A program made the position numbers and the translations under genes. The notes beneath the pieces are model-generated. The model was given only the letters and a program-made list of their open reading frames with translations. It searched no databases and was not told the DNA's origin. A stretch of DNA of 64,000 nt from Sphingobacteriales bacterium (GTDB lineage: Bacteria; Bacteroidota; Bacteroidia; Sphingobacteriales; Sphingobacteriaceae): positions 248,001 through 312,000 of the forward strand of contig JANXOD010000016.1 in assembly GCA_025353765.1 (NCBI GenBank). The letters run 5' to 3'. How positions within the stretch are numbered: the first letter of the stretch is position 1; every line of letters starts with the position of its first letter. Shown here one piece after another: positions 9,621 through 63,251 of this stretch.

Positions 9621-11072
9621 ATGAAAATTTATCCTTACCTATTAACAGCACTTATTATATGTTCTATTTCCTGCAGAAAAGATGCAGCTCTTAAACCAGA
9701 GCAGCCTGCTGATCCTTATTTATTACAACAGGCCAAAGACTGGTATAGTAATCAACAAAAGCTATCTGCCGCCCCGGGGGCTGTAGACTTGAAAGCTTAT
9801 ACTCCCGATTGGAGCAAAGCCAACATAGTTAAAAACAGTAAAGGACAAAACATCCTCGGACTTTCCTTATTCCGTTCTCCGCAAGTATATATGGAGCTGA
9901 ATGTGGTTATTGCTAATGGTAAACCCTTTGGCATATTCAAAAAATATGTAGAGACTAAGGATAAAAAAGACCAATTAAACATTTATAGTGGAAATGGTCA
10001 ATTAATTACACGGGCTAATTACAATCGGCAAAACCACTTATTAACATCAATTGACCCTCCCGGAATGAAAGTGATGAAAGAGAAGGAACAAGAGCCTGTA
10101 CCTGCACCAGGCGAGGAACCAGGCAGTGGTGGCGGGGGTGGAACAGATCCTGGGCCCGGCCCTATTGGTTTTAGTTATCAGGGGGCGGAAATAACGATTA
10201 CCATTCCTGCAGATCCTCCCGGCTACCAGGGTCCTTCTCCTTCCTTTGGTGGTGGTGGTTTTGACATTCCTTTTCCTTCTTTTCCAATTGGTGGTGGGGG
10301 AGATCCCTATTCTGATTTTCCGCATGGTGGCGGAGGTGGTGGGAATTATAATCCTGCGCCGGTACCTGTAATACCAACTTCGCCTACACCGCCACCCATT
10401 AAAGATAGTATTGATGCGCAATTTGAATGTGCTAAAGAACTATTAGCCATGCTACCTACTTTAAAGAGTGATATTGCAAAAATAGTATACAATACTTTTA
10501 ATAGTCAATCGGCTTATACATTAACTTTTATTAATGGGGAAACAAATTATTTCTTAGCCAATCCTAATACAGATGGATATACAGAGCATATAAGTCCAAC
10601 TGAATCAAAAATAGCATTAAATCCTAACGTACTAAATAATGCCAGCAACGAGTATATTTTAGCAACAATGTATCACGAAGCTTTACATGGGTTCCTGTTT
10701 GCAGAATTTACTAAGTTAGGAGAAGTGTCATTTAAACTAAAATACCCGGATATTTCCATTAAACCAAGTGCAGATCAAACCTGGACTCCTAATCCTCAAC
10801 CTAATTTTTCTATCGATGAAGGAAGCTATTTTACTCCTATTGTTGATAATGACCCTCAGCATCGTACAATGGCTGTTTATTTTACAACCGAACTTAAGAA
10901 TGCTATTTTAGCATACAACCCTAATTTTCCGCCAGATAGGGCAATGGCTTTAGCCCGAGGAGGAATATTTAATGATGCTGTGATTTCAACTTCTGATATT
11001 AATGTATATTATAATAGTGCCGAACGTGACCGAACTAAGGGAAATGCTGTCGGTAAAACATGTACTCCGTAA
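9621..11072 (+). CDS. Lipoprotein with variable HExxH C-terminal domain (candidate polymorphic toxin 1)
   Basis: 483 aa. A signal peptide with lipobox-like CSISC (Cys18) predicts export and lipidation. Residues 19-145 form a domain shared with the protein at 60255-61649 (YTPDWSKA, IVKNSKG, LNV, DKK, GQLIT). Residues 155-262 are a Gly/Pro-rich linker with long Gly runs. Residues 265-483 are a different C-terminal domain with YHEALHGF (His352, Glu353, His356), a zincin-type HExxH motif, ending in a Cys near the terminus. Conserved export half plus low-complexity linker plus swapped enzymatic tip is polymorphic-toxin architecture. A secreted protein gene follows 11 bp later. Toxicity is inference; an ordinary surface protease is the alternative. 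Confidence 0.65.
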   Translation: MKIYPYLLTALIICSISCRKDAALKPEQPADPYLLQQAKDWYSNQQKLSAAPGAVDLKAYTPDWSKANIVKNSKGQNILGLSLFRSPQVYMELNVVIANGKPFGIFKKYVETKDKKDQLNIYSGNGQLITRANYNRQNHLLTSIDPPGMKVMKEKEQEPVPAPGEEPGSGGGGGTDPGPGPIGFSYQGAEITITIPADPPGYQGPSPSFGGGGFDIPFPSFPIGGGGDPYSDFPHGGGGGGNYNPAPVPVIPTSPTPPPIKDSIDAQFECAKELLAMLPTLKSDIAKIVYNTFNSQSAYTLTFINGETNYFLANPNTDGYTEHISPTESKIALNPNVLNNASNEYILATMYHEALHGFLFAEFTKLGEVSFKLKYPDISIKPSADQTWTPNPQPNFSIDEGSYFTPIVDNDPQHRTMAVYFTTELKNAILAYNPNFPPDRAMALARGGIFNDAVISTSDINVYYNSAERDRTKGNAVGKTCTP

Positions 11073-11083
11073 ATTTATTTGAT

Positions 11084-11737
11084 ATGAAGATATATTTTAG
11101 AATATTAATATTGAATTTTATTGTACTATTAATATTTAATTCAGCAGTAGCGCAAATACAGCTTAAATGTGGAGATTTCACCATTCCTATTCCAAAGTTT
11201 AAAGAGAGTCCGGTAGCTTCTTTCGACAATAAATATGCGGTTATTAGTCTTTTAAACCCGATCTATAAATCGAAGAATAAAGTAGAGATTAGAATATATT
11301 CCTATAGAGAGGGAAATATGAACTATATGGGGCAGGTCTATATCATTACCTGCGATAGTAACCGCTTGTGCGGCCAGCGTTTTAGTTATGCACCATGGGT
11401 GTTACATCCGGATTGGGAACCTACTATCCATGATGCTCCTCTTTCCGGAAATATAAAATCTATTCAGATAATAAAACTCAATCCTAAAAAAGACTGGGAG
11501 GGCGTATTTGAAACCTTGATAAAAAATGGTCTGTTTACTATTTCAACAAACCCAAATAGTATAAAAATTACTGAAACAAATCCGGGTTTAGATTGCTATG
11601 CCGTATTAGAGATCAAAATAAATAATCACTACCGGGTGGTTAAATTTAATTCTCGTTCTAAAAACAAAGTGAAAGAAGCGAAGGGTTTACAACGATTACT
11701 CCAAGTATTTTCGGATAATTTTGATATAGATAAATAG
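11084..11737 (+). CDS. Exported protein, candidate immunity protein for the HExxH lipoprotein
   Basis: 217 aa beginning with a signal peptide (MKIYFRILILNF, cleavage after SAVAQ), so it should be periplasmic. Five or so Cys residues are scattered in the mature part, and the C-terminal third has NNHYRVVKF. No family recognised. The start at 11084 follows the lipoprotein stop by 11 bp; an upstream in-frame ATG at 11060 would overlap that gene and spoil the signal peptide. The tight spacing and same compartment as the lipoprotein make a partner or immunity role likely, but no homology proves it. Confidence 0.6.
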   Translation: MKIYFRILILNFIVLLIFNSAVAQIQLKCGDFTIPIPKFKESPVASFDNKYAVISLLNPIYKSKNKVEIRIYSYREGNMNYMGQVYIITCDSNRLCGQRFSYAPWVLHPDWEPTIHDAPLSGNIKSIQIIKLNPKKDWEGVFETLIKNGLFTISTNPNSIKITETNPGLDCYAVLEIKINNHYRVVKFNSRSKNKVKEAKGLQRLLQVFSDNFDIDK

Positions 11738-12049
11738 GAATTTAGTGTTTTCCCGTTGATTGAGATTATGATGAGGAGCCAGTTTGATAACATGGTAAAT
11801 ATTTTAGCAACTTGGGATAACAATGCGCACAACATGAACGATTACCGAAGAACAATGTTATATGGGATGAACAATGTAGGAAATGATCCGCTTAATCAAC
11901 CTTCTCCTGAACTAGTAGCTGCGGTAAATACGGCCTATAACAAAATTTTAACTGATTATGGATATACTACTGCTACTTTAGATACGTATTATTATGATCA
12001 GCTCCACGCTCCTTCTAATCAAAAAGTGCCAAGCATTGGATGTCCATGA
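11738..12049 (+). pseudogene. Displaced C-terminal tip of an HExxH lipoprotein (orphan cassette)
   Basis: The frame directly after the TAG of the preceding gene stays open for 103 codons with no good start (TTG at 11756 or ATG at 11768 are possible). The product (VFPLIEIMM, QFDNMVNILATWDNN, YRRTMLYGMNNVGNDPL, ending SIGCP) aligns loosely with the last ~90 residues of the lipoprotein at 9621-11072 (YFTPIVDNDPQ, HRTMAVYFTTELKNA, DRAMALARGGIFNDAV, ending KTCTP). It lacks export signal, linker and HExxH. This is what remains when a new tip replaces an old one in a polymorphic locus. A short independent gene is less likely. Confidence 0.5.
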
Positions 12050-12091
12050 AGTAAGTTAATCTTATGTGGCTTTAATTAACAATAAAAAATT

Positions 12092-12721
12092 ATGAAAAAA
12101 CTAATTATATCTATACTTCTATTACTAACGTTTCAATTATCTTTTGGACAAGATTCACAACGGGATAGTAGTATAAACAGCTTTATTTTAAACCTAAAAA
12201 AAGATAAAGTTAAGACGGTTTGTTTATATAAAATGTATAGCGGAGGTGAGTACGTGCCCTCAAAAGCAGAAGATAGATGTGGTAGAGGGCGGATGATTCC
12301 TGTTTATATTTTCTGGTATAAACGCGGGAAAAGTTATATGACTAAAAGAGATAATTGCTTTGATTACGCCATTTATGAAATAAAGGATAATACCTTTTGG
12401 CATTTTTACTTTAAAAACCAGGATATTATAAAGAAGGAAAAAATTAAGCCCTTTGCGTGTAAAGTAATCGTAAAGGGAGTAGATACAACCGTAACCCCAC
12501 ATGTTGCTGATGGTTCTTCTGAAAGTATGACTTTTATAGACGAAACTGGTTCTCTAACTCAAATATTTAGCTTTGATTATGACCAGAAGCAAACATCTGA
12601 GATGATTAATGTGAATTTTGAGAATAATGTGAATTCAAAAACACATTATTTAAAGGGTTTAGTAGATTCATTAACTACAGAATTTTATAAGAATAAGGTA
12701 AGAAAAACCAGAAGGCCATAG
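12092..12721 (+). CDS. Exported protein, immunity-like, related to the gene at 59608-60249
   Basis: 209 aa with a clear signal peptide (MKKLIISILLLLTFQLSFGQ). The mature part is rich in Lys, Tyr and Phe. It shares weak but ordered similarity with the protein at 59608-60249: the centre (DGSSESMTF against DGGTSHIFE) and the C-terminus (LKGLVDSLTTEF against LKGFVNT then LTELVEQTF). In the second locus that protein directly follows the paralogous lipoprotein. This supports one family of periplasmic partner proteins. No named family recognised. It probably belonged to the toxin variant whose tip now remains at 11738-12049. Confidence 0.6.
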   Translation: MKKLIISILLLLTFQLSFGQDSQRDSSINSFILNLKKDKVKTVCLYKMYSGGEYVPSKAEDRCGRGRMIPVYIFWYKRGKSYMTKRDNCFDYAIYEIKDNTFWHFYFKNQDIIKKEKIKPFACKVIVKGVDTTVTPHVADGSSESMTFIDETGSLTQIFSFDYDQKQTSEMINVNFENNVNSKTHYLKGLVDSLTTEFYKNKVRKTRRP

Positions 12722-12872
12722 CATATTCTGTAAGACATGGTGAACGGATTCATTTTTTAGAAAGCTTAAATTCTAATGGGCATAAAAAATTAGCAGCTAT
12801 CAGATTCTATTCCTTAGAGTTCTAATAAATCCAAATATTAGGAACCCTAACTAAAGTAATAATAAAACTATC

Positions 12873-13469
12873 ATGAAACATCTAAATAGAATTGCATTTG
12901 TAGTAATAGTTTTTTTTAACACAGTAGCTTATGCTCAAAACTTAGAAGATCCTTCTGAAGAGCAATTATTTTTGAATTGGTTTTTTCAAAATTACCAGCC
13001 GAATTTTAAGAATGATCCCTTGATATTATATACAGATGCTATACATACAGGAAGTTTAAAATCAATAAAAGAAAGCTTTAGCCGAGATACATTAAGAAGT
13101 TTGAGAAATGGATTGAAAGAGCTTTTAGTTCTAACAACTTCTGAGAAGTTATACATAAATAATCAATTGGATAAAATGACGGGAAGGATATGGCATGAAA
13201 ATTTATTAAAAAATTCGCAGATGATTAGCCTGGATAGCATACAAACCTTTTTTGAAAAACAAGGTCCTGGCTGGACTGGATATTATAAAAAATATACTAC
13301 CGGATTTTACAGTTTTTCAAAACCAATTTTTCTCAGAAATAACACGATATGTATATTTGATTATAGCTATTATTGTGGCTCACTCTGTGCTAACGGCGAA
13401 ACAGGAGTTTATTTTAAGCATAACGGAAAATGGAGTAAATGGCTAACAATTAGTACGTGGATAAGTTAA
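12873..13469 (+). CDS. Exported hypothetical protein at end of locus 1
   Basis: 198 aa, signal peptide MKHLNRIAFVVIVFFNTVAY with cleavage near YAQ. The N-terminal leader nearly matches that of the protein at 59608-60249 (MKHLNKIVFLFVLFLSTKAY), but the mature domains differ. The mature part (IHTGSLKSIKESFSRD, then SYYCGSLCANGETGVYFK and NGKWSKW) looks like a small alpha+beta secreted domain with three Cys near the C-terminus. Not recognised. Position in a row of exported genes behind the HExxH lipoprotein suggests another partner or immunity gene. Confidence 0.55.
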   Translation: MKHLNRIAFVVIVFFNTVAYAQNLEDPSEEQLFLNWFFQNYQPNFKNDPLILYTDAIHTGSLKSIKESFSRDTLRSLRNGLKELLVLTTSEKLYINNQLDKMTGRIWHENLLKNSQMISLDSIQTFFEKQGPGWTGYYKKYTTGFYSFSKPIFLRNNTICIFDYSYYCGSLCANGETGVYFKHNGKWSKWLTISTWIS

Positions 13470-13505
13470 GTTTTATATTCTGTCTTGGACTTAAATCACT
13501 TGCTG

Positions 13506-13526
13506 GTGCGAGCTTGCAGCTCGTAC
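13506..13526. repeat. REP-like palindrome
   Basis: GTGCGAGCT (13506-13514), loop TGC, AGCTCGTAC (13518-13526): a 9-bp stem with one G-T type mismatch. It sits 17 bp past the stop of a transposase remnant of the REP-associated type, the usual company of such palindromes. Core GCTTGCAGC recurs at 56015-56030. Confidence 0.6.
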
Positions 13527-13542
13527 TTAATAACCTTATTTT

Positions 13543-13716
13543 CTAAATGAAATCAATTTCAATCATTCCCTTTCCTCCACTATAATCAATTGCACTACTG
13601 TATTTCCAGTAATGCGGTTCAGTTACAAATCCGGCTGCTACAAGATTGTTATGAATGTAATCTACTTTCTGATCTATTACATCAGCACTCCAAAGTTCAA
13701 TCGGCTTATTATGCTG
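13543..13716 (-). pseudogene. C-terminal fragment of a REP-associated (Y1/IS200-like) transposase
   Basis: Reading the minus strand from 13716 gives 57 residues then TAG at 13543: HNKPIELWS, VIDQKVDYIHNN, AAGFVTEPHYWKYSSA, IDYSGGKGMIEIDFI. This is the characteristic end of Bacteroidota Y1-type tyrosine transposases (RAYT). A TAA lies directly before QHNKPIEL and the rest of the gene (catalytic HUH and Tyr) is absent; the Gp37-like gene ends 34 bp further on. So it is a dead remnant that marks past mobility at this boundary. Confidence 0.75.
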
Positions 13717-13749
13717 TTATTTATTTACCTGTAACTTATCACTTAAATC

Positions 13750-14514
13750 TTATGCAGCCTCAAAAGGCATTTCCCTATAAACTTTACCATCTAATTCACA
13801 ACCGCCTTTTGCATGCTGAGGATGTTCCGCTGACATTGTTGGGTCTAATGGATTTTCATTAAATTTTGGTTTGCCCCATTGCTTAAAGAAAAATGCAACC
13901 TTATTTTTCTCACATTTTATCTTAATAGAATCTATCCATGACTTTTCAATTGGACGTGCCTTATGTCCTGATTCACCACCAACTATAACCCAATCGATCT
14001 GTTCAAGATTTAATGTTTTAATCGGACCAATTAGCGGTTCAATAGAAAGGAACTTTGTTTTAGCGGCAGTTTGTGATAAATTGTCTATTCGAAAAGTATA
14101 TTCTTCATTTTCTACAGAAACACCCATCCAAATATTAGGCGTCCAATTTAATTCTGAAGATATTTCTAAAAGTCTTTCAGACCGCTTAGTGAGAACCTGA
14201 TAGATATGTTGAGGAGTTTGATTCATCACAGCAAAAACTGCCTTAATGTATTGCAATGAAACTTCTGGGTGAAATAGATCACTCATAGAATTGACAAAAA
14301 CCACTTTAGGCTTTCTCCATGAAAACGGGATATTGAGAGATTCAGGATGAGTTTTTACTTTTTTAAATCCATCTTTATATTTCTCAACGCCCATAGCTTT
14401 TAAGCGCTTAGACATTACTTCTGCATAACAAAACTTACAGCCAGGACTAATCTTAGTACATCCTGTAACAGGGTTCCAGGTAAGTTCTGTCCATTCAATT
14501 GATGATATAGCCAT
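13750..14514 (-). CDS. Phage Gp37/Gp68-family protein (DUF5131), three-Cys motif
   Basis: 254 aa of the Gp37/DUF5131 family. The N-terminus holds the three-cysteine motif C19-x6-C26-x2-C29 (NPVTGCTKISPGCKFCYAE), similar to iron-sulfur radical-SAM-like proteins. Also typical are VFVNSMSDLFHPEV, YQVLTKRSERL, WMGVSVEN, FLSIEPLIGP and WVIVGGESGHKARP. Function is unknown. Its start shares one base with the stop of the upstream TcmP gene (TAATG), so translation is coupled and the two products likely act together. The pair lies between REP-like sequences, consistent with a mobile accessory cassette. Confidence 0.85.
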   Translation of the reverse strand: MAISSIEWTELTWNPVTGCTKISPGCKFCYAEVMSKRLKAMGVEKYKDGFKKVKTHPESLNIPFSWRKPKVVFVNSMSDLFHPEVSLQYIKAVFAVMNQTPQHIYQVLTKRSERLLEISSELNWTPNIWMGVSVENEEYTFRIDNLSQTAAKTKFLSIEPLIGPIKTLNLEQIDWVIVGGESGHKARPIEKSWIDSIKIKCEKNKVAFFFKQWGKPKFNENPLDPTMSAEHPQHAKGGCELDGKVYREMPFEAA

Positions 14515-15365
14515 TATAATCTATATTTAGGTTTAATCACTTCATTTGCAATATTCAATGCTGAACGATTATTTGTTGCCATCATAAAATGATACATTAT
14601 TGAATTTGTACTATTTCGCATTACGAAAGGCTCTGAAACAAATTTAAAAACATTCCCTAACCTCTTCTTATATAAATCCCCCGCTTTAGTTATAGTCCTT
14701 TTTTCTTTATTAACAGTTATTTCTTCACCAAATAAAGTATTAATAACTTGAGTTTTATAAAAATGATCTTTAATTTCCTGTCTTGGTAAACCTAAAAAAG
14801 TTTCCAGTTTTGTTAACCATGAGTCAGATATATCACCATTTTTCTTTAATAACCTATTAACCCCTAAACCTGTAGGAACTAAAATCCATAAATCAATTCC
14901 TAAATTCTTTAAAGCCGAAATTGATTCCCAATTAACAGACATGCCATATGGATCTACAAAAGCCAAAGTCCGAAATTTATTGTTCTCTTTCAAAAAATTA
15001 GCCATGTCTATCAATTTGGTATTACAATCAGCTTGAACAATATGCGCATTTTGGATAACATGTGCATTTTTTCCTAAATAGTTAGATTGGATATTAGCTT
15101 CCAATGCGGCCTTAATTTTCTCATCTTTTTCTACAAAATAATATTTATCAAAAGGTTTTGGATCTTGAATTTCCAATATACGTAATGAAGTGCCTTTAAC
15201 AACTTCTTCACCTTCATCGACTTCAATTAATCCCGAACCAGCAAAGCCATCAAAGTATAAAGTCTTTGCCCAAGGTTGCTTGTTCATAATAATTAAGTAT
15301 GCCTTAGCATACTCAACTATTATTTCCATTTTTGCTTCTGTCCAATTGCCCCCAAACTGATTCAT
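14514..15365 (-). CDS. tcmP: Three-Cys-motif partner protein TcmP
   Basis: 283 aa. The start of the protein (MNQFGGNWTEAKMEIIVEY) and YFDGFAGSG (Asp39) are hallmarks of the TcmP family. The fold looks like a Rossmann methyltransferase: motif I at 38-45, acidic YYFVEKDE at the end of strand 2, then QADCN, and FVDPYG (Asp138-Gly141) where methyltransferases have a catalytic DPPY-like loop. By name and genomics the family accompanies Gp37-like three-Cys proteins, and here too the pair overlaps by 1 nt. Biochemical role unknown; modification of a nucleic acid or small molecule is inference. Confidence 0.85.
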   Translation of the reverse strand: MNQFGGNWTEAKMEIIVEYAKAYLIIMNKQPWAKTLYFDGFAGSGLIEVDEGEEVVKGTSLRILEIQDPKPFDKYYFVEKDEKIKAALEANIQSNYLGKNAHVIQNAHIVQADCNTKLIDMANFLKENNKFRTLAFVDPYGMSVNWESISALKNLGIDLWILVPTGLGVNRLLKKNGDISDSWLTKLETFLGLPRQEIKDHFYKTQVINTLFGEEITVNKEKRTITKAGDLYKKRLGNVFKFVSEPFVMRNSTNSIMYHFMMATNNRSALNIANEVIKPKYRL

Positions 15366-54294: not shown

Positions 54295-54376
54295 ACCGGA
54301 AGTCCAATCTCTTTTTATTTGTATGTTGGATAGGTTTCGCAGAGTGTGGCGAAGTTTAAGAGCTTTCGCTTTCTAA

Positions 54377-54607
54377 GTTGCAACGCTAGTTTTCTAAGTT
54401 GCAAGAGGAGTTTTCCTTTTCACATTGCTAGTTTTCTTTCTTACAATGGGAGTTTCTTAAGTTGCAACGCTGGTTTTCTTTCTCACATTGCTAGTTTTCT
54501 AAGTTACAATTCGAGTTTTCTTTTTCACAACGTGAGTTTTTAAAGTTGCATTGCTAGCTTTCTTTCTTGCAAGGGGAGTTTTCCTTTTCACAATGTGGCT
54601 TTTCTAA
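54377..54607. repeat. Degenerate 21-bp tandem repeat, array C (11 units)
   Basis: Eleven units of exactly 21 bp start at 54377 (GTTGCAACGCTAGTTTTCTA), with a weaker unit before. Core features are TTGCAA or TCACAT at the left and AGTTTTCT in the middle. Plus-frame reading gives a heptad (SFLSCNA, SFLSCKR, SFPFHIA, SFLSYNG and so on) up to a TAA in the eighth unit; synonymous changes are frequent. No start, so it is not called a gene. It fills most of the nadB-DUF559 gap. Confidence 0.85.
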
Positions 54608-54641
54608 TTTTTGGGTTGGGAGCGTTCATTAAGCAAAAAAT

Positions 54642-55025
54642 TTATCTTTTTGCAATCCAATCCTCCAAAAACTTAATCACTCCGTTTATATCCTCTAAAA
54701 CTTCCTCATCTGTAAAACGGAGAACAGTAAAACCGATGGCCTCCAAATCTGCTTGGCGTTTCAAATCTTTCTCATAAACTTCTTCCCAGGTATGAGTAAT
54801 GCCATCTACTTCAATAATCAGCATTAATTCCGTACACATAAAATCAGCGATATAATTTAACACCGGTCTTTGTCTTCTAAACTGATAACCTTGCATTTGC
54901 CTGGCTTTTAAAACATATTTCCACAAACACGCCTCTGCTTTAGTCATTTGTTTTCTCAGAACTGATGCCAGAGGTTTTAATTTAGGATTGTAAGCATAAA
55001 AGTTTCTTTTATTGGCTTTTTCCAT
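54642..55025 (-). CDS. DUF559 endonuclease-like protein
   Basis: 127 aa. A DUF559/Vsr-like PD-(D/E)XK fold: MTKAEACLWKYVLKARQM and YQFRRQRPV lead into YIADFMCTELMLIIEVDGITH (Asp and Glu of the active site, then DG-H). Related to the very short patch repair endonuclease and proteins often found as mobile accessory genes. Substrate unknown. It borders array C and the helical gene at 55110. Confidence 0.85.
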   Translation of the reverse strand: MEKANKRNFYAYNPKLKPLASVLRKQMTKAEACLWKYVLKARQMQGYQFRRQRPVLNYIADFMCTELMLIIEVDGITHTWEEVYEKDLKRQADLEAIGFTVLRFTDEEVLEDINGVIKFLEDWIAKR

Positions 55026-55069
55026 TACAAGAAATTATAATTATTGCTTAACCACCTCCGCCTTCGGCA

Positions 55070-55085
55070 CCTCCGCCAGCGGAGG
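55070..55085. repeat. CCTCCGCCAGCGGAGG palindrome
   Basis: CCTCCG-CCAG-CGGAGG, about 25 bp after the stop of the gene at 55110 on the minus strand. It may act as terminator stem, but no T-run follows, so it is listed as a palindrome. Confidence 0.5.
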
Positions 55086-55109
55086 ACATACTTCTGAATG
55101 GAACAATTG

Positions 55110-55847
55110 TTATTTACGTTCTGAAAACTTGATACCGCTTACCTGCTTGTACTCGGGGCTGGTGGCTCCGAAAGCGGATTTGATGTATTTTTTTACATCC
55201 AGGCTTGTATTATAGAGGCCGGTTTCTTCGGCGTACAGGATTTTGTCTCTTTCTATGCGGGCGTTGCTTACATCGGTGTAAGCGGTGGCTACGTCTGCAT
55301 TGGCCTGTGTCTGCTGAGTAATTAAAGCAGTTAGGGTAGCTACTTTTAAATCTGTTTCATTGGGTTTGTAGGTTGGTTCGTTTATTAATGCAGATACCAT
55401 TCCTTTGAGGTGTTCTATCTGCTGGTTATAGGATTGCTGCGAGGAGGAAATAGTTTTGGGTACTGGTGTGTTCGGATCGACAGGGGTGACAGCTTCTTCT
55501 ACTTTGCCTGCTTTTTTACCCTGCATTTTCCGGTTGAACCCTTTTATATCTTTTTTGCTTTCTTCTGATGCATCGGTTGTATCAAAGGCGTTAACAATGC
55601 GAGTGGCTAATTGTTTATTGTCTTTAAATAGATTTACGCGGGCATTTACGGCTGCGTTAAATTTTGTTTTTTCTGTTATTACAGCGTCTACTGCGGTTTT
55701 GGCGGCAAGATACATGGCATCTAATTGTGCTGCCTGAACGGCTGCTTTACTCGGGTTGTACTTTGCTCCGTATCCTTTAGTAAAGGTGTTGAGACTTAAA
55801 AAGCTGTCTACATTTTGGGCGTGCCCGGTTTCTGAGGTTGATGACAT
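55110..55847 (-). CDS. Helical Ala/Lys-rich protein, function unknown
   Basis: 245 aa, no signal peptide. Predicted to be almost all helix: AAQLDAMYLAAKTAVDAVITEK, then a Gly/Lys-rich basic patch (KGFNRKMQGKKAGKVEEA), a Thr/Pro spacer, and another helical part (EHLKGMVSALINE, IERDKILYAEE) ending with a basic tail (FSERK). The composition resembles a structural or scaffold protein. Family not recognised. It lies near 21-bp array C, as the other unknown helical gene (15644-16108) lies beside array A. Confidence 0.65.
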   Translation of the reverse strand: MSSTSETGHAQNVDSFLSLNTFTKGYGAKYNPSKAAVQAAQLDAMYLAAKTAVDAVITEKTKFNAAVNARVNLFKDNKQLATRIVNAFDTTDASEESKKDIKGFNRKMQGKKAGKVEEAVTPVDPNTPVPKTISSSQQSYNQQIEHLKGMVSALINEPTYKPNETDLKVATLTALITQQTQANADVATAYTDVSNARIERDKILYAEETGLYNTSLDVKKYIKSAFGATSPEYKQVSGIKFSERK

Positions 55848-56014
55848 AAAATTTGTTTTTAAGGTTAATGGATGTATATTAAAATTTATAGCAATAAATA
55901 TATAAATAATTTTTATAAACTCATTTTATGAAAATAATTTTCAATTAATGATTTAATAAGATATGGTGTTTAGTTGCTAAGGGATAAATAGCCTTTGCCT
56001 GATGTAGGAGGAGA

Positions 56015-56030
56015 GCTACAGGCTTGCAGC
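56015..56030. repeat. REP-like palindrome at the island edge
   Basis: GCTACAGGCTTGCAGC is nearly self-complementary (G-T wobbles). Its core GCTTGCAGC matches that of the palindrome at 13506-13526. It stands 68 bp from the end of the DGQHR gene. The remaining 55848-56097 is AT-rich without genes. Confidence 0.5.
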
Positions 56031-56097
56031 AGCGAGGATGATATTATAAGAAGTAATGACACTGGATTGAACAGTAGATAGTAACAGGATTAATATT

Positions 56098-58377
56098 TTA
56101 TTTCTTTACTAGCCAATCATAGATCTCTTCTATGAAGGACAATTCTTCACTAGTAACATAATACGTATGATAGTTCTCATTGCGTATTCTATTTAATTCA
56201 ACCATCCATTTAGTTTTAGCGTCTTTACCACCAGAGATCTTTTCTTCATTTGGTCTGGTATAAGAAATCTCAAACATTTTTTGCCAATTTTTAAGTATTA
56301 TTTCTCTATAATCTATTAAATGAAGTTGATCCCAAGGCTCCTTTTCCTCATTCTCATCTTCAATTTCCCGGTTTTTCTTTGCTGCTAATGCAATAGCATC
56401 CGAGTAAATCTTTTCAGGTAATCCTTTTTTAAACCAGCTCTTACCAAATTCATCTTCTAGTTTTTGTTTTATATTAACCTTCAAATTAGAATTCTCTATT
56501 TCTCTTATATATTTAAAGGCAGTTTCATTATTTTCTTTTTCCTCCTTTTTTAGATATTCATCCAGTCCTTCAAAATGAATATCTGAATGGTCTTTTCTTA
56601 AGGCTATTTGCAAAGTTCTCCAGTACTTTGCATTTCCAGGAGTACCATAAGCTTTTTTCAACTCATTAGTTTTTTCTTCATCAAGTTCTTTATAAAAATG
56701 AAGTATAGTATCTAAATATGTCTTTGTCTCCCCAAAAATTTCTTTTATAGGAGTGGAAGCAGTGATTATTTTTTGAGATAGTAAATGATTAACAATATCA
56801 TTTAGCAACATAGTTATACCATAAAAACCCTTATTAATAAGTATTATATTGCCCTCACTTTCCCATATTTCTTCAAGGCTTTCTTTTATGAAATTGAAAC
56901 ATCTGATTAAATATTCTGAAATATTTTCATATGCTTTTTGAAGATCTCCTGTATAAAATGTGCCTAATTTTTCAATCTCTTTTGCCTTTACCTTACCTAA
57001 AAAATCGCTCTTGCTTAAAGTTATACCAATTTGTTCCATCGAAATGAGTTTCGAGTCTTCACCTATTGTTATTTTATCGTATAAGGGCGAATTTCGTGTT
57101 TCGCCTAAATGAATAGCTATTCTAGATTTAAGCGCTTTTATTTGATTTAAATAGCTATCTGAATCCCACAATAAATCAGCATCTAACGTATTTCTTAAAT
57201 CCTTAGATACCGGCTTTTGATTCTTATTGATTTGCATAAATAGCCTAACTTGTTCCGACCTATCTAAATTTACTAATGCGACTACAGGAATTGTATTTGT
57301 TGATTTATATTGAGAATTTGAATAACCATATAATCTATGTTGACCATCAATTATATACGCTGACCTATATTTCTTTGGAAGATGTAGTATACCAATACGT
57401 GAAATAGCATCTGGGACTTGAGTCTCACTCCTTTCAAAAACCAAATCTTTGTTTTTATCTGATACTATGTTAATGATTACTGAATTAGGAAAATATCCCT
57501 TTTCATCATCTATAAAGGAATGTATTTCCTTTAATCTATTTTTTTTAATTAATCTTTGATAGGTAGGCATCATATTTTCATTTGCCTTATTTCGATGAAG
57601 AACATATCCAATTTTTAATAATTTTTCAGGTTCGATTGAAAAAGAATAATAGGTATGCCCACCCATCTTACCTTTAATAGCAGGTGTTCTGTTTTCTAAA
57701 TCTGGAATTTCTTGGCCTGCAAAGAGGGCTCCTAAAAGTTGATATCTTGCAGCGATCCCAATCTGTGATTGTAAAGAATAATAATAGTCAATAACTTCTT
57801 CAGAAAAGTGGATTCCATCAATATTAGCAAGCCTAGACTCATCAGTAGAAGAAAGCCCTAGGTTTCTAGTTGCGAGAATATATTTAAATTTAGGTTTGGT
57901 TGATGGAAATAAAGCTGAAATAGTATTAATTATACCGCTTTTCTTGCTTTTCATGGCTTCAAGTTCCTTGTTAAAATCACCCAGTTTATTCTTGATAGAT
58001 GATTTACATTCAATAATTAGAACTGTTTCATCGTCTTTAGCAAATACATCAATTTGCTGTGTCAATGAGAAGTTATTTTTATCATAAGGCAGATGTAAAT
58101 ATCTATCCTTATTCATTAGTTTAAACCCAAGCTGTGCAAATAATGACCATACTTTATCTTCAAAAGCAATATCATCAGATTTTTTTCTAAGTATTTTTGT
58201 TGTCGTCTTCAGGATGGTGTCTACCTCCCACCCATCGAGAAGTTTTTCTTCTAATGCACTCGAACCATTATTATAACTTTCTTTATAAAATTCCGATTTT
58301 CGAGTTCTAAGACTTTTTTGAATTTCATTCCCTGGAATTAACTTACTGAGAAGGGTGACTTTTTGATCTTCTGTCAT
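56098..58377 (-). CDS. DGQHR-domain protein with N-terminal PD-(D/E)XK nuclease domain
   Basis: 759 aa. Residues about 70-130 look like a restriction-endonuclease fold: helix FEDKVWSLFAQLGF, then QQIDVF (Asp110) and VLIIECKSS (Glu123, Lys125). Residues about 260-450 form a DGQHR domain, as in DndB: QRLIKKNRLKEIHSFI, ISRIGILHL, DGQHR at 344-348, VNLDRSEQVRLFMQINKNQKPVS. The C-terminal 250 residues are unassigned and helical. DGQHR proteins appear in phosphorothioate modification (DndB) and in defence islands. The start overlaps the Dam gene stop by 4 nt. A restriction-like partner of that methylase is the best reading, but is inference. Confidence 0.75.
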   Translation of the reverse strand: MTEDQKVTLLSKLIPGNEIQKSLRTRKSEFYKESYNNGSSALEEKLLDGWEVDTILKTTTKILRKKSDDIAFEDKVWSLFAQLGFKLMNKDRYLHLPYDKNNFSLTQQIDVFAKDDETVLIIECKSSIKNKLGDFNKELEAMKSKKSGIINTISALFPSTKPKFKYILATRNLGLSSTDESRLANIDGIHFSEEVIDYYYSLQSQIGIAARYQLLGALFAGQEIPDLENRTPAIKGKMGGHTYYSFSIEPEKLLKIGYVLHRNKANENMMPTYQRLIKKNRLKEIHSFIDDEKGYFPNSVIINIVSDKNKDLVFERSETQVPDAISRIGILHLPKKYRSAYIIDGQHRLYGYSNSQYKSTNTIPVVALVNLDRSEQVRLFMQINKNQKPVSKDLRNTLDADLLWDSDSYLNQIKALKSRIAIHLGETRNSPLYDKITIGEDSKLISMEQIGITLSKSDFLGKVKAKEIEKLGTFYTGDLQKAYENISEYLIRCFNFIKESLEEIWESEGNIILINKGFYGITMLLNDIVNHLLSQKIITASTPIKEIFGETKTYLDTILHFYKELDEEKTNELKKAYGTPGNAKYWRTLQIALRKDHSDIHFEGLDEYLKKEEKENNETAFKYIREIENSNLKVNIKQKLEDEFGKSWFKKGLPEKIYSDAIALAAKKNREIEDENEEKEPWDQLHLIDYREIILKNWQKMFEISYTRPNEEKISGGKDAKTKWMVELNRIRNENYHTYYVTSEELSFIEEIYDWLVKK

Positions 58378-59216
58378 AGATTAGTATTTGTAAAAACAAA
58401 CTCATTTGTTTGACCTCTTTCAGCATTCATACCGCCAATTAAACTCGCTCTCTCTAGTCTAATTTTTCGATCTCCCTTTTCAAAAATTTCTTCAATTGTA
58501 GTATGAGCCGCATTTGTTAATATATAAAATGCATCTTTTTCTCTAATCTCATCAATCATTGCACTTAGCCTAATTTGATCTTCTAAGGAAAATATTTTTT
58601 CATTATATTTTATAAAGCCATTATCATTATGAGAGACGGTATAAGGAGGATCAAGAAACACAAGATCTCCAGTATTTACATTTTCCAGAATATCATAAAA
58701 ATCACCTTTAAAAAGAGTTGTATCTTGTAATGATCTACTTGCTTTTATTAGAACATTTTCGTCAAGAAATTCTTTAGTTCTAAATCCATATGGCACATTG
58801 TAAACTCCTTTAAGATTTACTCTGTAAATCCCATTATACGAAGTTTGATTTAGGTAAATGAATTGTGCAGCTCGATCATGAATGCTTTCAAAATTCATGT
58901 TTCTTATTTTATAATAATCCTCCTCTGTATTATTAAAACTTTTAAGCTTTTTTATTATCGCATTTACATCATCTTTTATTGCCTGATATGTTTCAATTAG
59001 ATCACTATTTAAATCAGAAAGAAATGAATGGTTCTTTGGATTAAGATAAAAAAAAGTGGATCCCCCCCCCAGAAAGGCTTCATGATAATTATTGTAATTA
59101 GATTTCTTAATGTTATCAAGATATTTAATTAGCCAAGATTTTCCGCCTGCCCATCTTAAAAAAGGCTTTGCAACTTTACTTTCTGATGCATCTATTGTTT
59201 CTTTCATTTTTTGCAT
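58374..59216 (-). CDS. Dam-type (D12 class) DNA adenine methyltransferase
   Basis: 280 aa. D12 adenine-N6 methyltransferase: KPFLRWAGGKSWLI (residues 17-30), the SAM loop EAFLGGGSTFFY (48-53 is FLGGGS), acidic SDLNSDLIETYQAI, SYNGIYRVN, and catalytic FLDPPY (Asp189-Tyr192). The fold predicts methylation of adenine, commonly GATC in this class. The codons for FLGGGS contain a run of nine G, so expression could switch by slippage. First gene of the pair with the DGQHR protein (4-nt overlap). Confidence 0.9.
   Translation of the reverse strand: MQKMKETIDASESKVAKPFLRWAGGKSWLIKYLDNIKKSNYNNYHEAFLGGGSTFFYLNPKNHSFLSDLNSDLIETYQAIKDDVNAIIKKLKSFNNTEEDYYKIRNMNFESIHDRAAQFIYLNQTSYNGIYRVNLKGVYNVPYGFRTKEFLDENVLIKASRSLQDTTLFKGDFYDILENVNTGDLVFLDPPYTVSHNDNGFIKYNEKIFSLEDQIRLSAMIDEIREKDAFYILTNAAHTTIEEIFEKGDRKIRLERASLIGGMNAERGQTNEFVFTNTNL
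59062..59070. repeat. Poly-C/G tract (9 bases) inside the methylase gene
   Basis: C9 on the plus strand (G9 in the coding strand) encodes Gly-Gly-Gly of the SAM-binding loop. A gain or loss of one base would shift the frame within the first fifth of the protein. No other homopolymer G/C run of this length was noticed in the window's coding regions. Confidence 0.8.
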
Positions 59217-59446
59217 CTATTCTTCAAAATGGAAAGTTAGTAAGTTCAATCTGCTTTCTTTATTTGCAAGGAGCTAATTCAATTAAAGACTCGACTATAA
59301 GAAACAAATATTAAAAAAATTAATCGATAGATTAGATATTAATATAATAACTTTCTGACTTAAGCTTAAAGACTAAATTATTGTAGGCTTCTATTTGAAT
59401 CTGAAGCTAGCGATTTAAGAAAAAGTAATAAGTCAAAAGTATACTA

Positions 59447-59463
59447 TTGGGGGATCCCCCCAA
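59447..59463. repeat. TTGGGGGATCCCCCCAA palindrome
   Basis: A 17-bp perfect-looking inverted repeat (one extra C) around GGATCC. It contains GATC, a Dam-type site. It sits just before the 109-bp element copy 2. The rest of 59217-59446 is AT-rich without a gene. Confidence 0.6.
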
Positions 59464-59471
59464 CAAAAACA

Positions 59472-59580
59472 ATGTCATTCCGAACGAGTGATAACGAGGA
59501 GGAAACTGATTGGGTGCTTAAAACAAAGTAAGGTAGTAATACCAAATAAGTTCCCTCACCTTGCAGGTTCGGAAGGACAT
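59472..59580. repeat. 109-bp dispersed element, copy 2
   Basis: ATGTCATTCCGAACGAGTGA at the left end, GTTCGGAAGGACAT at the right. About 93 percent identical by eye to copy 3 (61798-61906), same orientation. The two bracket the second lipoprotein/partner cassette (59608-61649). Copy 1 lies upstream of nadB. Confidence 0.8.
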
Positions 59581-59607
59581 AGGTAGAATTACAACCCAGA
59601 GAGAATT

Positions 59608-60249
59608 TTACCTAAGTCGGATAGGATCATCCTTAAATGTTTGCTCAACCAGCTCTGTTAGCTTATCATACGTATTAACAAAACCCTTAAGAATCCCATA
59701 TTCCTGATTAAAGGGGTAACACCTTTCTAAATAAAAAGATGGAGCATAGGTATCAATGCCTTTTTTAGAAGTCTTAGTGTGTTCAAATATATGCGAAGTA
59801 CCTCCATCTTTTATGGATTCATAATTAATTGTATCTCCTTTAATTGGGCAATATTCGGGCAGTTTATGGTAATCTTCTTTAGAAAATTTAAACGCTTCGG
59901 CGGATGCGATTTCCTTTAAATATGTTTTTGCTTCTAACTCAGCAAGTTTTTTTTGATTAACCTTAAGTATGGGCTTTTTTGTGAAATAATCAATATTTAT
60001 TAAGCGAATCAAATAGTATTCCTGCCCTTTCTTAATAATGCCATAAAATCCATAATCAATGCTAATCCAATTAGAAGTTGAATAGGTCAATAGTGCATAA
60101 TCAATCTTATTTAGCTTTACGAATTTTTCAAGAGAGTCAACTTCAGGAACAAGAAATTTCCGAGTATCATTCCTTACGTCTATTTGGGTATATGCTTTTG
60201 TGCTAAGAAAAAGTACAAATAAGAATACTATTTTATTTAGATGTTTCAT
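59608..60249 (-). CDS. Exported protein, candidate immunity protein of locus 2
   Basis: 213 aa. Signal peptide MKHLNKIVFLFVLFLSTKAY with cleavage after YTQ. Mature part starts IDVRNDTRKFLV, has YCPIKGDTINYESIKDGGTS, YAPSFYLERCYPFN, and ends LTELVEQTFKDD. It resembles the exported protein at 12092-12721 in the middle and C-terminus, and its signal peptide resembles that of 12873-13469. It begins 5 bp after the stop of the lipoprotein gene, so it is its co-translated partner. Immunity is inferred from the arrangement. Confidence 0.6.
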   Translation of the reverse strand: MKHLNKIVFLFVLFLSTKAYTQIDVRNDTRKFLVPEVDSLEKFVKLNKIDYALLTYSTSNWISIDYGFYGIIKKGQEYYLIRLINIDYFTKKPILKVNQKKLAELEAKTYLKEIASAEAFKFSKEDYHKLPEYCPIKGDTINYESIKDGGTSHIFEHTKTSKKGIDTYAPSFYLERCYPFNQEYGILKGFVNTYDKLTELVEQTFKDDPIRLR

Positions 60250-60254
60250 CTTGA

Positions 60255-61649
60255 TTAATTACAAACTGGGTTGCCTAAACTTTTAGTGATATAGTCTCTG
60301 GAGATATCTTTCAATTCGTCTTTAGTCATACTTCCTCCAGGATAATCAAAATTAGTTGAGTTAATATAACTATTTGCATCAGCTAAACCACTCCATGCTA
60401 AAGCTGTTGCATCTTTTATTGGGATATTATACAGCCCCGAAAGAAAAGTAGCCATTGGCTGTACATAATTAGTTGCCATATCTTGATGTTCAATGACCTG
60501 CAATTTATTTTGTCCCGTGTAAGCAAAATAAGAATGAATTACTTCATGAATTATAACAGTCGCTGAATTTTCTTTAGTACTTGGTAATAGAGTATTGGTA
60601 CTTATGCTTATGGTGCCGAAAAAGTTCCCACCTACAAAACCTGGTTGTGCATCAAATTTAGCAGCTACAGATTTGCCATTTTTATTAAATACATCCGGTG
60701 CATCCACTACACTAATTTGGACCTTAGTATTTTGATCTAACGCACTAATAATTTCACTTATTTTACCGGCTACATTAGAATTCTTTAGTGAGTTTACTAC
60801 TGCTTTCAAACAAGGGTCTTTAACCTCATTCTTAATATCAGCAGGTTTCGGTTCTGGCTTTTTAGGCTTTGGTGCAGCAGGTGCACCGCCTCCGCCATAT
60901 GACCAATGATGATGACTATCTTCATCTGGTTCAGGGCTATAATGACTACCAATAGGCTCTGAAGGAAAGTTATATGAAGGCCTATTATGATGAAACGGTT
61001 GACCTATCACCACCACCTCAGATAATGATCCACCATAGACTGTGGGGTCTCCACCAATAGGACCACTGTAGTCATTACTGCTACCACCGATGTAGCCACC
61101 ACCACCGCTGTCATTACCACGGGGTCCACTATCCTCACCCCGGAGACTACCATCCCAGGGTCGAGGCAGTGGGACTCTCGGTTTATCAGGGATTGACATT
61201 AATCTAAACGCAGAATAATTAGTAGAGGTCAATAGCCCCTTTTTCTCATCGTCAGCTCCGTTTGTAATTAATCTGCCAGAGCCATCATACATACTTAACC
61301 GACTTTTTTTATCTGTACCGAGGGTATACTGCTTAAGTATCCCAAGCGTTTGGCCATCCACAGTCATTACATTCAAGTCTATATACTCTTGTGATGAGCT
61401 AAGCAAAGTAAGCCCCAGTACATTTTCTCCTTTACTGTTTTTAACGATCTGGGCTTTGCTCCAATCGGGGGTATACCCGTTCACATTGGGAGTTCCAGAG
61501 CTAGCAGATGCTTGTTGAGTACGATACCAATTTTGGGCTTCTTGCAGTAAAATCGGATCGGCAGGTTGCTCTATTTTAAGCGGTGCATCTTTCCTACAGG
61601 AAATAGAAAATACAATAAGTGCTATTAATAGGTAGGGGTAAATTTTCAT
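60255..61649 (-). CDS. Lipoprotein with HExxH C-terminal domain (candidate polymorphic toxin 2)
   Basis: 464 aa, paralog of 9621-11072. Lipobox region SISCRKDAPLK (Cys18), shared N-terminal domain (residues 19-150: PADPILLQEAQNWY, YTPDWSKAQIVKNSKG, DKKSRL), then a Gly/Pro/Ser-rich linker containing LSEVVVIGQ (a motif common at plug-like or exported-toxin junctions), a His-rich patch and a Pro/Lys stretch. The C-terminal domain from residue 270 has IIHEVIHSYFAYTG (His368, Glu369, His372), a metallopeptidase-like HExxH, and a last Cys. The tip sequence differs from the first paralog, as in polymorphic toxins. Between 109-bp repeats. Confidence 0.65.
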   Translation of the reverse strand: MKIYPYLLIALIVFSISCRKDAPLKIEQPADPILLQEAQNWYRTQQASASSGTPNVNGYTPDWSKAQIVKNSKGENVLGLTLLSSSQEYIDLNVMTVDGQTLGILKQYTLGTDKKSRLSMYDGSGRLITNGADDEKKGLLTSTNYSAFRLMSIPDKPRVPLPRPWDGSLRGEDSGPRGNDSGGGGYIGGSSNDYSGPIGGDPTVYGGSLSEVVVIGQPFHHNRPSYNFPSEPIGSHYSPEPDEDSHHHWSYGGGGAPAAPKPKKPEPKPADIKNEVKDPCLKAVVNSLKNSNVAGKISEIISALDQNTKVQISVVDAPDVFNKNGKSVAAKFDAQPGFVGGNFFGTISISTNTLLPSTKENSATVIIHEVIHSYFAYTGQNKLQVIEHQDMATNYVQPMATFLSGLYNIPIKDATALAWSGLADANSYINSTNFDYPGGSMTKDELKDISRDYITKSLGNPVCN

Positions 61650-61674
61650 GTTAATTGTTTAGTTTTTAGCATAT

Positions 61675-61714
61675 ATTTTAGGTACAACCTGCTTAAAGTT
61701 TGAAATGTTTTAAA
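61675..61714 (-). promoter_or_regulatory. Leader shared with the first lipoprotein gene (copy 2)
   Basis: On the minus strand: TTTTAAAACATTTCAAACTT, then TAAGCAGGTTGTACCTAAAAT, 25 bp before the ATG. It closely matches 9565-9600 upstream of the paralog, with which it probably shares regulation. The rest of 61715-61797 shows no gene. Confidence 0.5.
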
Positions 61715-61797
61715 ATCTGAGATTATTTAAAAATCAGGGAGGGAAAGAAAAAGTAAAGGACAAAAGCATCCCATTTTTGAATGCTCAAACAAACACC

Positions 61798-61906
61798 ATG
61801 TCATTCCGAACGAGTGATAACGAGGAGGAAACTAATTAGGTGCTTAAAACAAATTGAGATAGTAATACCAAATAAGTTCCCTCACCTTGCAGGTTCGGGA
61901 TGACAT
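61798..61906. repeat. 109-bp dispersed element, copy 3
   Basis: Starts ATGTCATTCCGAACGAGTGA and ends GGTTCGGGATGACAT. The ends form a 14-bp inverted repeat with one mismatch. Same orientation as copy 2 on the other side of the lipoprotein/partner cassette. 61907-62026 shows no gene. Confidence 0.8.
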
Positions 61907-62026
61907 GGAGGAAATGGGTTTTGGGATGTACACAAGACTGTACCGTGTTGCATTTCTTTAAAGGGCTGAGGCTGAATTAGCAAGAATAGTAAAATAACAA
62001 AAAATAAATATGTTCTTCTCGCCTTA

Positions 62027-62575
62027 TTACCCCTCGGTAGTTGATTTCTTCCCCTTCCTGATTATAAATGAAAATATCATCAAAGCTATGGAAGGTAAAC
62101 CAATCCATACCAATTCACTTTGTATTACTGCTAATCCCTTGCCTTTAAAAAAAGTAGTGATGCTAATGGGAGACACTTTAATAGGCCGGAATGGAAAGAA
62201 ATAACGTTGATTATTAAATGGCGAAAAAAAGGCTACACCCAATCCGCCTGTGGTCATAGCATCCAGTATAGCATGAGATACACAGGATAAGAACAGGAAT
62301 ATAAAGATCCGTGTTTTCTCTTTTGAAGTTTGCGATCGGTAAAAAGCAAAAACAAGTACTATTGAAAGAATAAGGGCAAATACAATAGAATGTGTAAATC
62401 CACGATGTCCCCAAAATGAATCATATGGAACACCGAATTTAAATCCTATGGAGTCTGCATCAGGTAGAATAGAAACAATCATTCCCATTAACATAAGTTT
62501 TCCCTGCATTCTTTTTACAATGCCTGTAGAGCCAAATGCTAATGATGCGGCTGCATGTCCGAATGCTGATGCCAT
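62027..62575 (-). CDS. YdjM-like membrane metal-dependent hydrolase
   Basis: 182 aa from MASAFGHAAASLAFG at 62575 (an upstream ATG at 62608 adds 11 unlike residues). Four membrane segments, with the family's metal motifs: LPDADSIGF, WGHRGFTHS and CVSHAILDAMTTGG. Members of the YdjM/YfhO-like hydrolase family are predicted to cut phospholipid-related substrates in the membrane. The substrate is unknown. A single gene between accessory locus 2 and the SMI1 gene. Confidence 0.85.
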   Translation of the reverse strand: MASAFGHAAASLAFGSTGIVKRMQGKLMLMGMIVSILPDADSIGFKFGVPYDSFWGHRGFTHSIVFALILSIVLVFAFYRSQTSKEKTRIFIFLFLSCVSHAILDAMTTGGLGVAFFSPFNNQRYFFPFRPIKVSPISITTFFKGKGLAVIQSELVWIGLPSIALMIFSFIIRKGKKSTTEG

Positions 62576-62750
62576 GATAACAGGAATTTCTTCTTGTAAA
62601 GAAAGCAAATTTTTTTGAGAGGAAATCTGAAGCGAAAAGCCTTATCGTCTGTTCGGATAGCTGTGATAGGATAATTTAATTAAATGCGATTGTAATTAAA
62701 ATATTCAAGCTATTTTTAGCAGGTTATATAAAACCTAAAATCACCTTTAA

Positions 62751-63251
62751 ATGGAAAAGATTTGGAATGAATTCATTGGTCATCTTACTAAAACAGAGCC
62801 GGAGTCCCTTAGCAAAATTAACCCTCCTGCTACAACAGAGCAATTAAATGAAGCTAAGGCTATATTGGGTTCTGTATTTCACGAAGATATAGAACAGCTT
62901 TACCATTTAGCAAATGGATTTACAGAGGGCGCTTATTTACTTAGAGATGATTATCGTATTTTGCCCATAGATGAAATGATTAAACAATCTCTTGCTTTGG
63001 CAGGAAAGCGTATTTTTACTGATTATGAAGCCGGGCAATCCAGAAAAATAAAAAAAGGTGATATGATTGTTTTGGCATTAGCTGAAGAAGATAATTGTGA
63101 TGTAGAAAAAATAAGTATTTCTGTTACAAGAGGAAAAACGAATGTTGCCATTTGGTTTAAAGAAGACGGAATTCATGATTATGAAGAAGTTATTGATACT
63201 TCAGAAACTTTAGAAGAATGGCTAACCTCAGTATTAGAGTATTACAGTTAG
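62751..63251 (+). CDS. SMI1/KNR4 (SUKH) family protein
   Basis: 166 aa. Fits the SMI1/KNR4 (SUKH) fold: PPATTEQLNEAKAILGSVFHEDIEQLYHLANG, then LRDDYRILPIDEMI and VAIWFKEDGIHDYEEVIDTS. In bacteria these proteins mostly serve as immunity to polymorphic toxins, and others are housekeeping. It stands alone without a toxin partner but near locus 2. Its end overlaps a possible longer start of the carbonic anhydrase gene; the ATG at 63278 removes that. Confidence 0.75.
   Translation: MEKIWNEFIGHLTKTEPESLSKINPPATTEQLNEAKAILGSVFHEDIEQLYHLANGFTEGAYLLRDDYRILPIDEMIKQSLALAGKRIFTDYEAGQSRKIKKGDMIVLALAEEDNCDVEKISISVTRGKTNVAIWFKEDGIHDYEEVIDTSETLEEWLTSVLEYYS

Follow-up and report, generated by a model that had tools for sequence, protein, structure and literature searches.

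Two overlapping genes on the minus strand of the window, the 64-kb stretch of Bacteroidota DNA analysed here, encode a DNA adenine methylase and a 759-aa partner protein with three domains. Together they appear to form a compact antiviral defence module that has barely been described. We favor, with a probability of roughly 0.55, a reading in which this module is a mobile restriction-modification (R-M)-like defence whose methylase marks self DNA and whose NTP-gated partner carries both DNase and RNase effectors. The methylase gene (58374-59216, minus strand, 280 aa) lies upstream and is coupled by a 4-nt ATGA start-stop overlap (58374-58377, minus strand) to the gene for the putative effector/sensor (56098-58377, minus strand), which combines a PD-(D/E)XK-like domain, a DGQHR domain of DndB/ParB-sulfiredoxin type and a HEPN domain. 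The first-pass annotation had reported this gene pair, and rereading the window confirmed both its coordinates and the overlap; the identical ATGA overlap recurs in many homologous loci.

The upstream protein had been called a D12 methylase, an identity that was borne out by profile matches well above cut-off. It matches PF02086 (MethyltransfD12) at 1.6e-42, with 146 bits against a cut-off of 22, and TIGR00571 (dam) at 4.2e-60, with 204 bits against a cut-off of 114.9, and its sequence contains a DPPY motif. Its closest solved relative in the PDB is DpnM (DpnII 1, 2dpm; 1.8e-43), and the R-x-N and NVP(F/Y)G region is as in DpnM and Dam. By homology, the enzyme thus belongs to the D12-class (Dam/DpnM-like) DNA adenine-N6 methyltransferases, and it is the only D12 protein encoded in the 2.83-Mb source genome. 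GATC avoidance, a sign of active restriction, was absent from the window (observed/expected 0.92); this counts against the defence-module reading and is uninformative on the specificity of the methylase.

The most conserved segment of the partner is its DGQHR core (residues 233-528; 56794-57681, minus strand), which matches TIGR03187 at 1.9e-44, with 152.5 bits against a cut-off of 58.85; the protein also matches the Pfam DndB model at 7.4e-17. The DGQHR motif itself (residues 344-348; 57334-57348, minus strand) is kept in 27/28 full-length homologues, the exception being L041 with DSQHR, and Q274-R275, D344, Q346, H347, R348 and N384 are invariant in 27/27 homologues; F380 to N384 of the query fit an FxxxN-like motif. 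Because a first AlphaFold2 run on eight family members was too shallow beyond residue 220, we remodelled residues 225-759 with 17 sequences (mean pLDDT 84). Foldseek comparison of this second model with the PDB returned the ParB/sulfiredoxin-fold neighbours SspE, BrxU, PadC and Srx, all weak (E about 1), and its neighbours were clear among viral DndB-like and GmrSD_N-like predicted structures. A relation between DGQHR and GmrS domains has been described (PMC4619093). The domain had been annotated as DNA-sensing, which was an assumption; the resemblance tested points instead to ParB/sulfiredoxin-fold domains (SspE, BrxU, Srx), some of which have been shown to control a nuclease through NTP hydrolysis.

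At the N terminus, the first AlphaFold2 run gave a confident alpha/beta domain over residues 1-200 (pLDDT about 80-90), whose Foldseek matches were mainly PD-(D/E)XK nucleases (Cdn1, VC1899, EndoMS, Card1, AF1548, McrC and FokI). The best E-value was only 2e-3, but the matches were consistent. Together with a Pfam Hjc match above cut-off in the relative L045, these results support a PD-(D/E)XK fold for residues ~61-200 (57778-58197, minus strand), and so structure prediction supported the nuclease fold on which the first-pass annotation had staked its interpretation. The candidate active site, D110...E123-x-K125 (58003-58050, minus strand), is intact in the query, with each residue where the annotation had placed it, in IDV...ECK. 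As a family-wide pattern, however, it held only in part: of 28 full-length homologues, 16 have an intact D-(E/D)-K triad (21 if Lys-to-Arg is counted), 5 have Arg in place of Lys and 7 have a broken triad, which counts against the defence-module reading. One of the seven, L089, has Q-x-K, a variant used by some nucleases of the PD-(D/E)XK fold. Since several homologues with an eroded triad still keep the gene pair, the PD domain cannot on its own account for effector activity across the family.

A third domain, missing from the first-pass annotation, occupies the C terminus (residues ~621-757; 56107-56517, minus strand). Using PF18731 (HEPN_Swt1) proteins taken from related genomes, profile-profile comparison by hhalign matched the C-terminal ~140 residues with a probability of 98.3 (E 1.2e-14), whereas the three remaining segments of the family's proteins, run as controls, scored at most 1.1%. 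The query's own Pfam HEPN_Swt1 match was below threshold (0.07), and those of relatives reached 7.9e-4 and 1.5e-4. The segment is helical in the AlphaFold2 model and carries an Rx4H motif, R732-NENY-H737 (56167-56184, minus strand), whose Arg and His are both kept in 26/28 homologues; L049 and L050 lack both and keep the PD triad. As HEPN structures did not surface when the second model was searched against the PDB with Foldseek, we base the assignment on the profile comparison and the motif, which point to a Swt1-like HEPN domain that is probably RNA-cutting. The PADLOC candidate defence family PDC-M34B also matches the query C terminus, and roughly half of the family members that were scanned have a match to its models. 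In the query lineage, both the PD and HEPN segments are under purifying selection (pN about 0.09-0.16 versus pS about 0.7-0.84). That losses of the two motifs exclude one another is suggestive, there being no overlap in the homologues, but the cases are too few to claim it.

We collected full-length homologues from species genomes, IMG/VR proviruses and plasmids (n=28 including the query). A same-clade D12 methylase adjoins 23/28 of them versus 2/33 other DGQHR loci (Fisher p about 1e-9), and in those two control loci it stands in a different arrangement. The predicted co-occurrence of the two genes is therefore far above chance. The pairing recurs in distant bacteria and in proviruses, with the methylase upstream in two separate clades of the tree and downstream in a third, which implies that it has been kept or re-formed across rearrangements. 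Divergence of methylase and partner is also correlated (Mantel r 0.85, p 0.0002), which shows co-transmission rather than function, since the two genes are inherited together. That an orphan Dam gene merely sits beside an unrelated DGQHR gene has a point in its favor in the four full-length relatives without a nearby D12 methylase (L024, L025, L042 and L053), which also count against the defence-module reading. Set against the frequency of pairing, the two gene orders, the correlated divergence and the ATGA overlap, chance neighborhood nevertheless deserves almost no credence, and chance adjacency was rejected on the strength of the control DGQHR loci. L045, where a more distant D12 methylase lies downstream together with another DGQHR protein, likewise counts against the defence-module reading.

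Under the favored reading, the Dam-type enzyme would methylate adenines in a short host motif, possibly GATC, so that host DNA is marked as self. The DGQHR core, with its ParB/sulfiredoxin-like fold, would survey DNA and bind or hydrolyse NTP, and would translate the recognition of a site, marked or unmarked, into a change of conformation. Unmarked or aberrant DNA would then release the effectors: the N-terminal PD-(D/E)XK domain would cut or nick DNA, and HEPN at the C terminus, probably dimeric, would cleave RNA and halt the cell. Methyl self-marking, an NTPase switch in the DGQHR domain, DNA cutting by the PD domain and RNA cutting by HEPN are proposed by analogy, in the case of the NTP switch with SspE, DndI and GmrS. 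In SspE and DndI, NTP hydrolysis and defence both depend on the DGQQR motif or an equivalent Arg, and DGQQR domains gate nucleases through NTP (PMC11662687, PMC13251355); HEPN domains tied to R-M nucleases have been proposed as suicide effectors (PMC3710099). The PD and HEPN effectors look partly redundant, because each is eroded in some homologues and none clearly lacks both. What selection appears to keep is the NTPase-like core and its partnership with a modification enzyme.

Two decayed loci bear on this scheme from opposite sides. In L041 the methylase (10306-10713) is truncated at its N terminus, the PD triad is broken and the Gly of the DGQHR motif is changed, which is what one would predict of a partner that endangers its host once the mark is gone. 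In L050 the methylase (5553-6401) is interrupted by an in-frame stop, yet the PD triad is intact and the HEPN motif is lost; this locus counts against the defence-module reading.

Other divisions of labor between the two proteins have to be weighed against this reading. One is a type II-like R-M system, in which cleavage of unmethylated recognition sites by the PD-(D/E)XK domain is the only effector activity, and the DGQHR and HEPN domains serve no more than DNA binding and dimerisation. The intact triad of the query, the PD fold and the strong linkage to a methylase all agree with such a system, but as many as 12/28 homologues have a broken or altered triad, in most cases with the pair retained, and the HEPN Arg and His persist almost throughout the family. 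A HEPN domain acting only as a helper is disfavored, because its catalytic motif would not be expected to persist. We therefore regard a type II-like system as unlikely, and of the R-M-like two-gene unit originally proposed, the linkage and the nuclease fold stand, but the PD nuclease as the only effector across the family does not. The sign of the methyl signal could also be reversed, such that the partner attacks only once the host mark has activated its NTPase. SspE, the closest mechanistic analogue, requires the host mark for its antiphage activity (PMC11662687, PMC13251355), and SspE and BrxU are among the ParB/sulfiredoxin-fold neighbours; however, no pocket for marked DNA was identified, and the truncated methylase beside a damaged partner in L041 fits a toxin blocked by the mark better than one activated by it. 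Such a mark-activated partner seems to us a little less probable still than a type II-like enzyme.

The DGQHR protein might instead regulate modification or assist it as an accessory subunit, and be no effector at all, as proposed for DndB and DpdB. It is with the DpdB, DndB and TIGR04172 models that the DGQHR domain scores best. Those models cover only the DGQHR part, though, and a purely regulatory protein would leave the fused PD and HEPN domains, with their conserved PD and Rx4H residues, without a role; we consider it improbable, more so than either of the two preceding alternatives. Within the favored reading of an R-M-like defence with two effectors, a bolder version holds that a single NTP-gated polypeptide combines DNase and RNase effectors, recognises base methylation as the mark of self, and forms a two-gene immune system with an exchangeable modification partner, either Dam or a B12-type radical-SAM enzyme. 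We put this version forward as a tentative possibility, well short of the likelihood of the general reading.

The exchangeable partner is suggested by relatives in whose neighborhood a radical-SAM gene takes the place of the Dam methylase: the plasmid copies L024 (Novosphingobium; region 10347-14616) and L025 (Agrobacterium/Rhizobium; 10350-14573) and the provirus L053 (10177-11412). The L053 radical-SAM gene has a B12-binding match, and the L024 and L053 proteins are 41% identical. Both plasmid copies also have a second DGQHR gene and a gene for an ATP-binding protein (GHKL in L024), and a GHKL ATPase gene lies upstream in L042. The radical-SAM partner might make a DNA mark of a new kind, and these relatives point to a possible unrecognised DNA modification system.

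In another arrangement, a gene for a ~380-aa DGQHR protein follows one whose small product is a predicted membrane protein (L080 1689-4160; L081; L004 10400-12141; L039 6088-7829). The ~380-aa DGQHR unit stands directly with a D12 methylase in L080 and directly downstream of the three-domain pair in L004 and L039. The small membrane protein and the ~380-aa DGQHR protein are a second, related module.

Searches against known systems returned only parts of the module. By sequence, the large protein had no match in the PDB even at E 10; in the phage collection it had only partial matches covering the DGQHR domain, and scans of the viral collection with single proteins and with alignment A3 found no new full-length family members. 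Among PADLOC and NCBIfam profiles for known systems, only partial matches appeared (DpdB and PDC-M34B). The query shares the DGQHR domain family (TIGR03187, PF14072) with DndB and DpdB, but differs in its three-domain fusion, and no dnd or dpd partner genes were found around the pair. For Dnd, TIGR04172 reached 97 bits against 450, and there was no other Dnd-like profile match in the neighbouring genes scanned; for Dpd, NF041060 reached 77.9 bits against 300, and no dpd partner was found among the neighbouring genes scanned. As for DpnII-type and other Dam-family type II R-M systems, the methylase is of the DpnM/Dam family, but the partner has no match to any known type II endonuclease and has NTPase-like and HEPN domains. 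The earlier view that the pair is distinct from both Dnd and classical type II systems thus stands.

SspE, DndI, GmrSD and BrxU resemble the partner in fusing a DGQ(Q/H)R ParB/sulfiredoxin domain to a nuclease, and SspE and DndI work with a host DNA mark. Their nuclease is HNH, however, and a profile scan found no DUF1524/HNH match in the query, which has PD-(D/E)XK and HEPN domains instead; the presumed mark here is D12 base methylation, and there it is phosphorothioation or phage base modification. PD-Lambda-5, which its authors called compacted RM+Abi (Vassallo et al. 2022, PMC9519451), resembles the module in that our methylase matches its B component models; a profile scan of the partner found no A component, so that the methylase alone matches. 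Anantharaman et al. (2013, PMC3710099) tabulate a fusion of Swt1-like HEPN with ParB (type Saro_3948), as well as a MAE_28990 HEPN whose operon also encodes a DNA methylase and a ParB nuclease. The likeness lies in an Abi2/Swt1-class HEPN that is joined to a ParB-like domain or encoded next to one, methylase genes being present in one of the operons; the difference is that these table entries describe neither a PD-(D/E)XK N terminus nor a Dam-type two-gene unit and that the HEPN protein of the methylase operon is separate. HEPN-ParB fusions and a HEPN-ParB-methylase operon have accordingly been known since 2013, and the pair described here is a variation on them. Saro_3948 is possibly identical with L024, the relative on the Novosphingobium plasmid, or closely akin to it. 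Judging by title and abstract, none of the open-access papers that mention DGQHR describes the two-gene module, although such absence is not proof.

If the favored reading is correct, the ParB/sulfiredoxin logic of sensing a mark, hydrolysing and striking, known for phosphorothioate systems, would apply to ordinary adenine methylation as well, here with a single protein carrying two different nucleases, and the mostly unexplained DGQHR proteins would gain a tractable model. Having only two genes, the module is directly testable in a laboratory strain.

The pair lies in an acquired island (54295-63217) bounded by nadB on one side and the gene for a gamma-carbonic anhydrase on the other. In six congeners, the carbonic anhydrase gene follows nadB within about 15 bp or overlaps it, and the island is absent; in the source genome 8.9 kb separate the two genes. 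GC content of the pair is 30.3% versus 36.1% for the window. The family is patchy: within the genus it occurs in the source genome and one other, and it is present in 13/351 of a sample of the order, with three full-length matches and one partial match among 396 in a phylum sample; copies also occur in proviruses and on plasmids. The unoccupied site in the congeners, the provirus and plasmid copies and a defence neighbour in L004 speak for horizontal spread and so for the defence-module reading. Placement in defence islands, as initially suggested, was found in one case, L004, whose locus follows the candidate defence system PDC-M27ABC; in the few other loci checked, the neighbours are mostly ordinary genes, and a defence context in only one of the loci examined counts against the defence-module reading. 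The same acquired island encodes a DUF559 protein (54642-55025, minus strand) that also matches the REase_MTES_1575 model below cut-off, and beside its gene a 21-nt unit is repeated in tandem about a dozen times (54370-54623; 7 codons, SFLSCNA-like). Upstream of the pair, a 119-nt direct repeat (59462-59580 and 61788-61906; 92% identical, 2326 bp apart) flanks two hypothetical genes and may mark a duplication or insertion.
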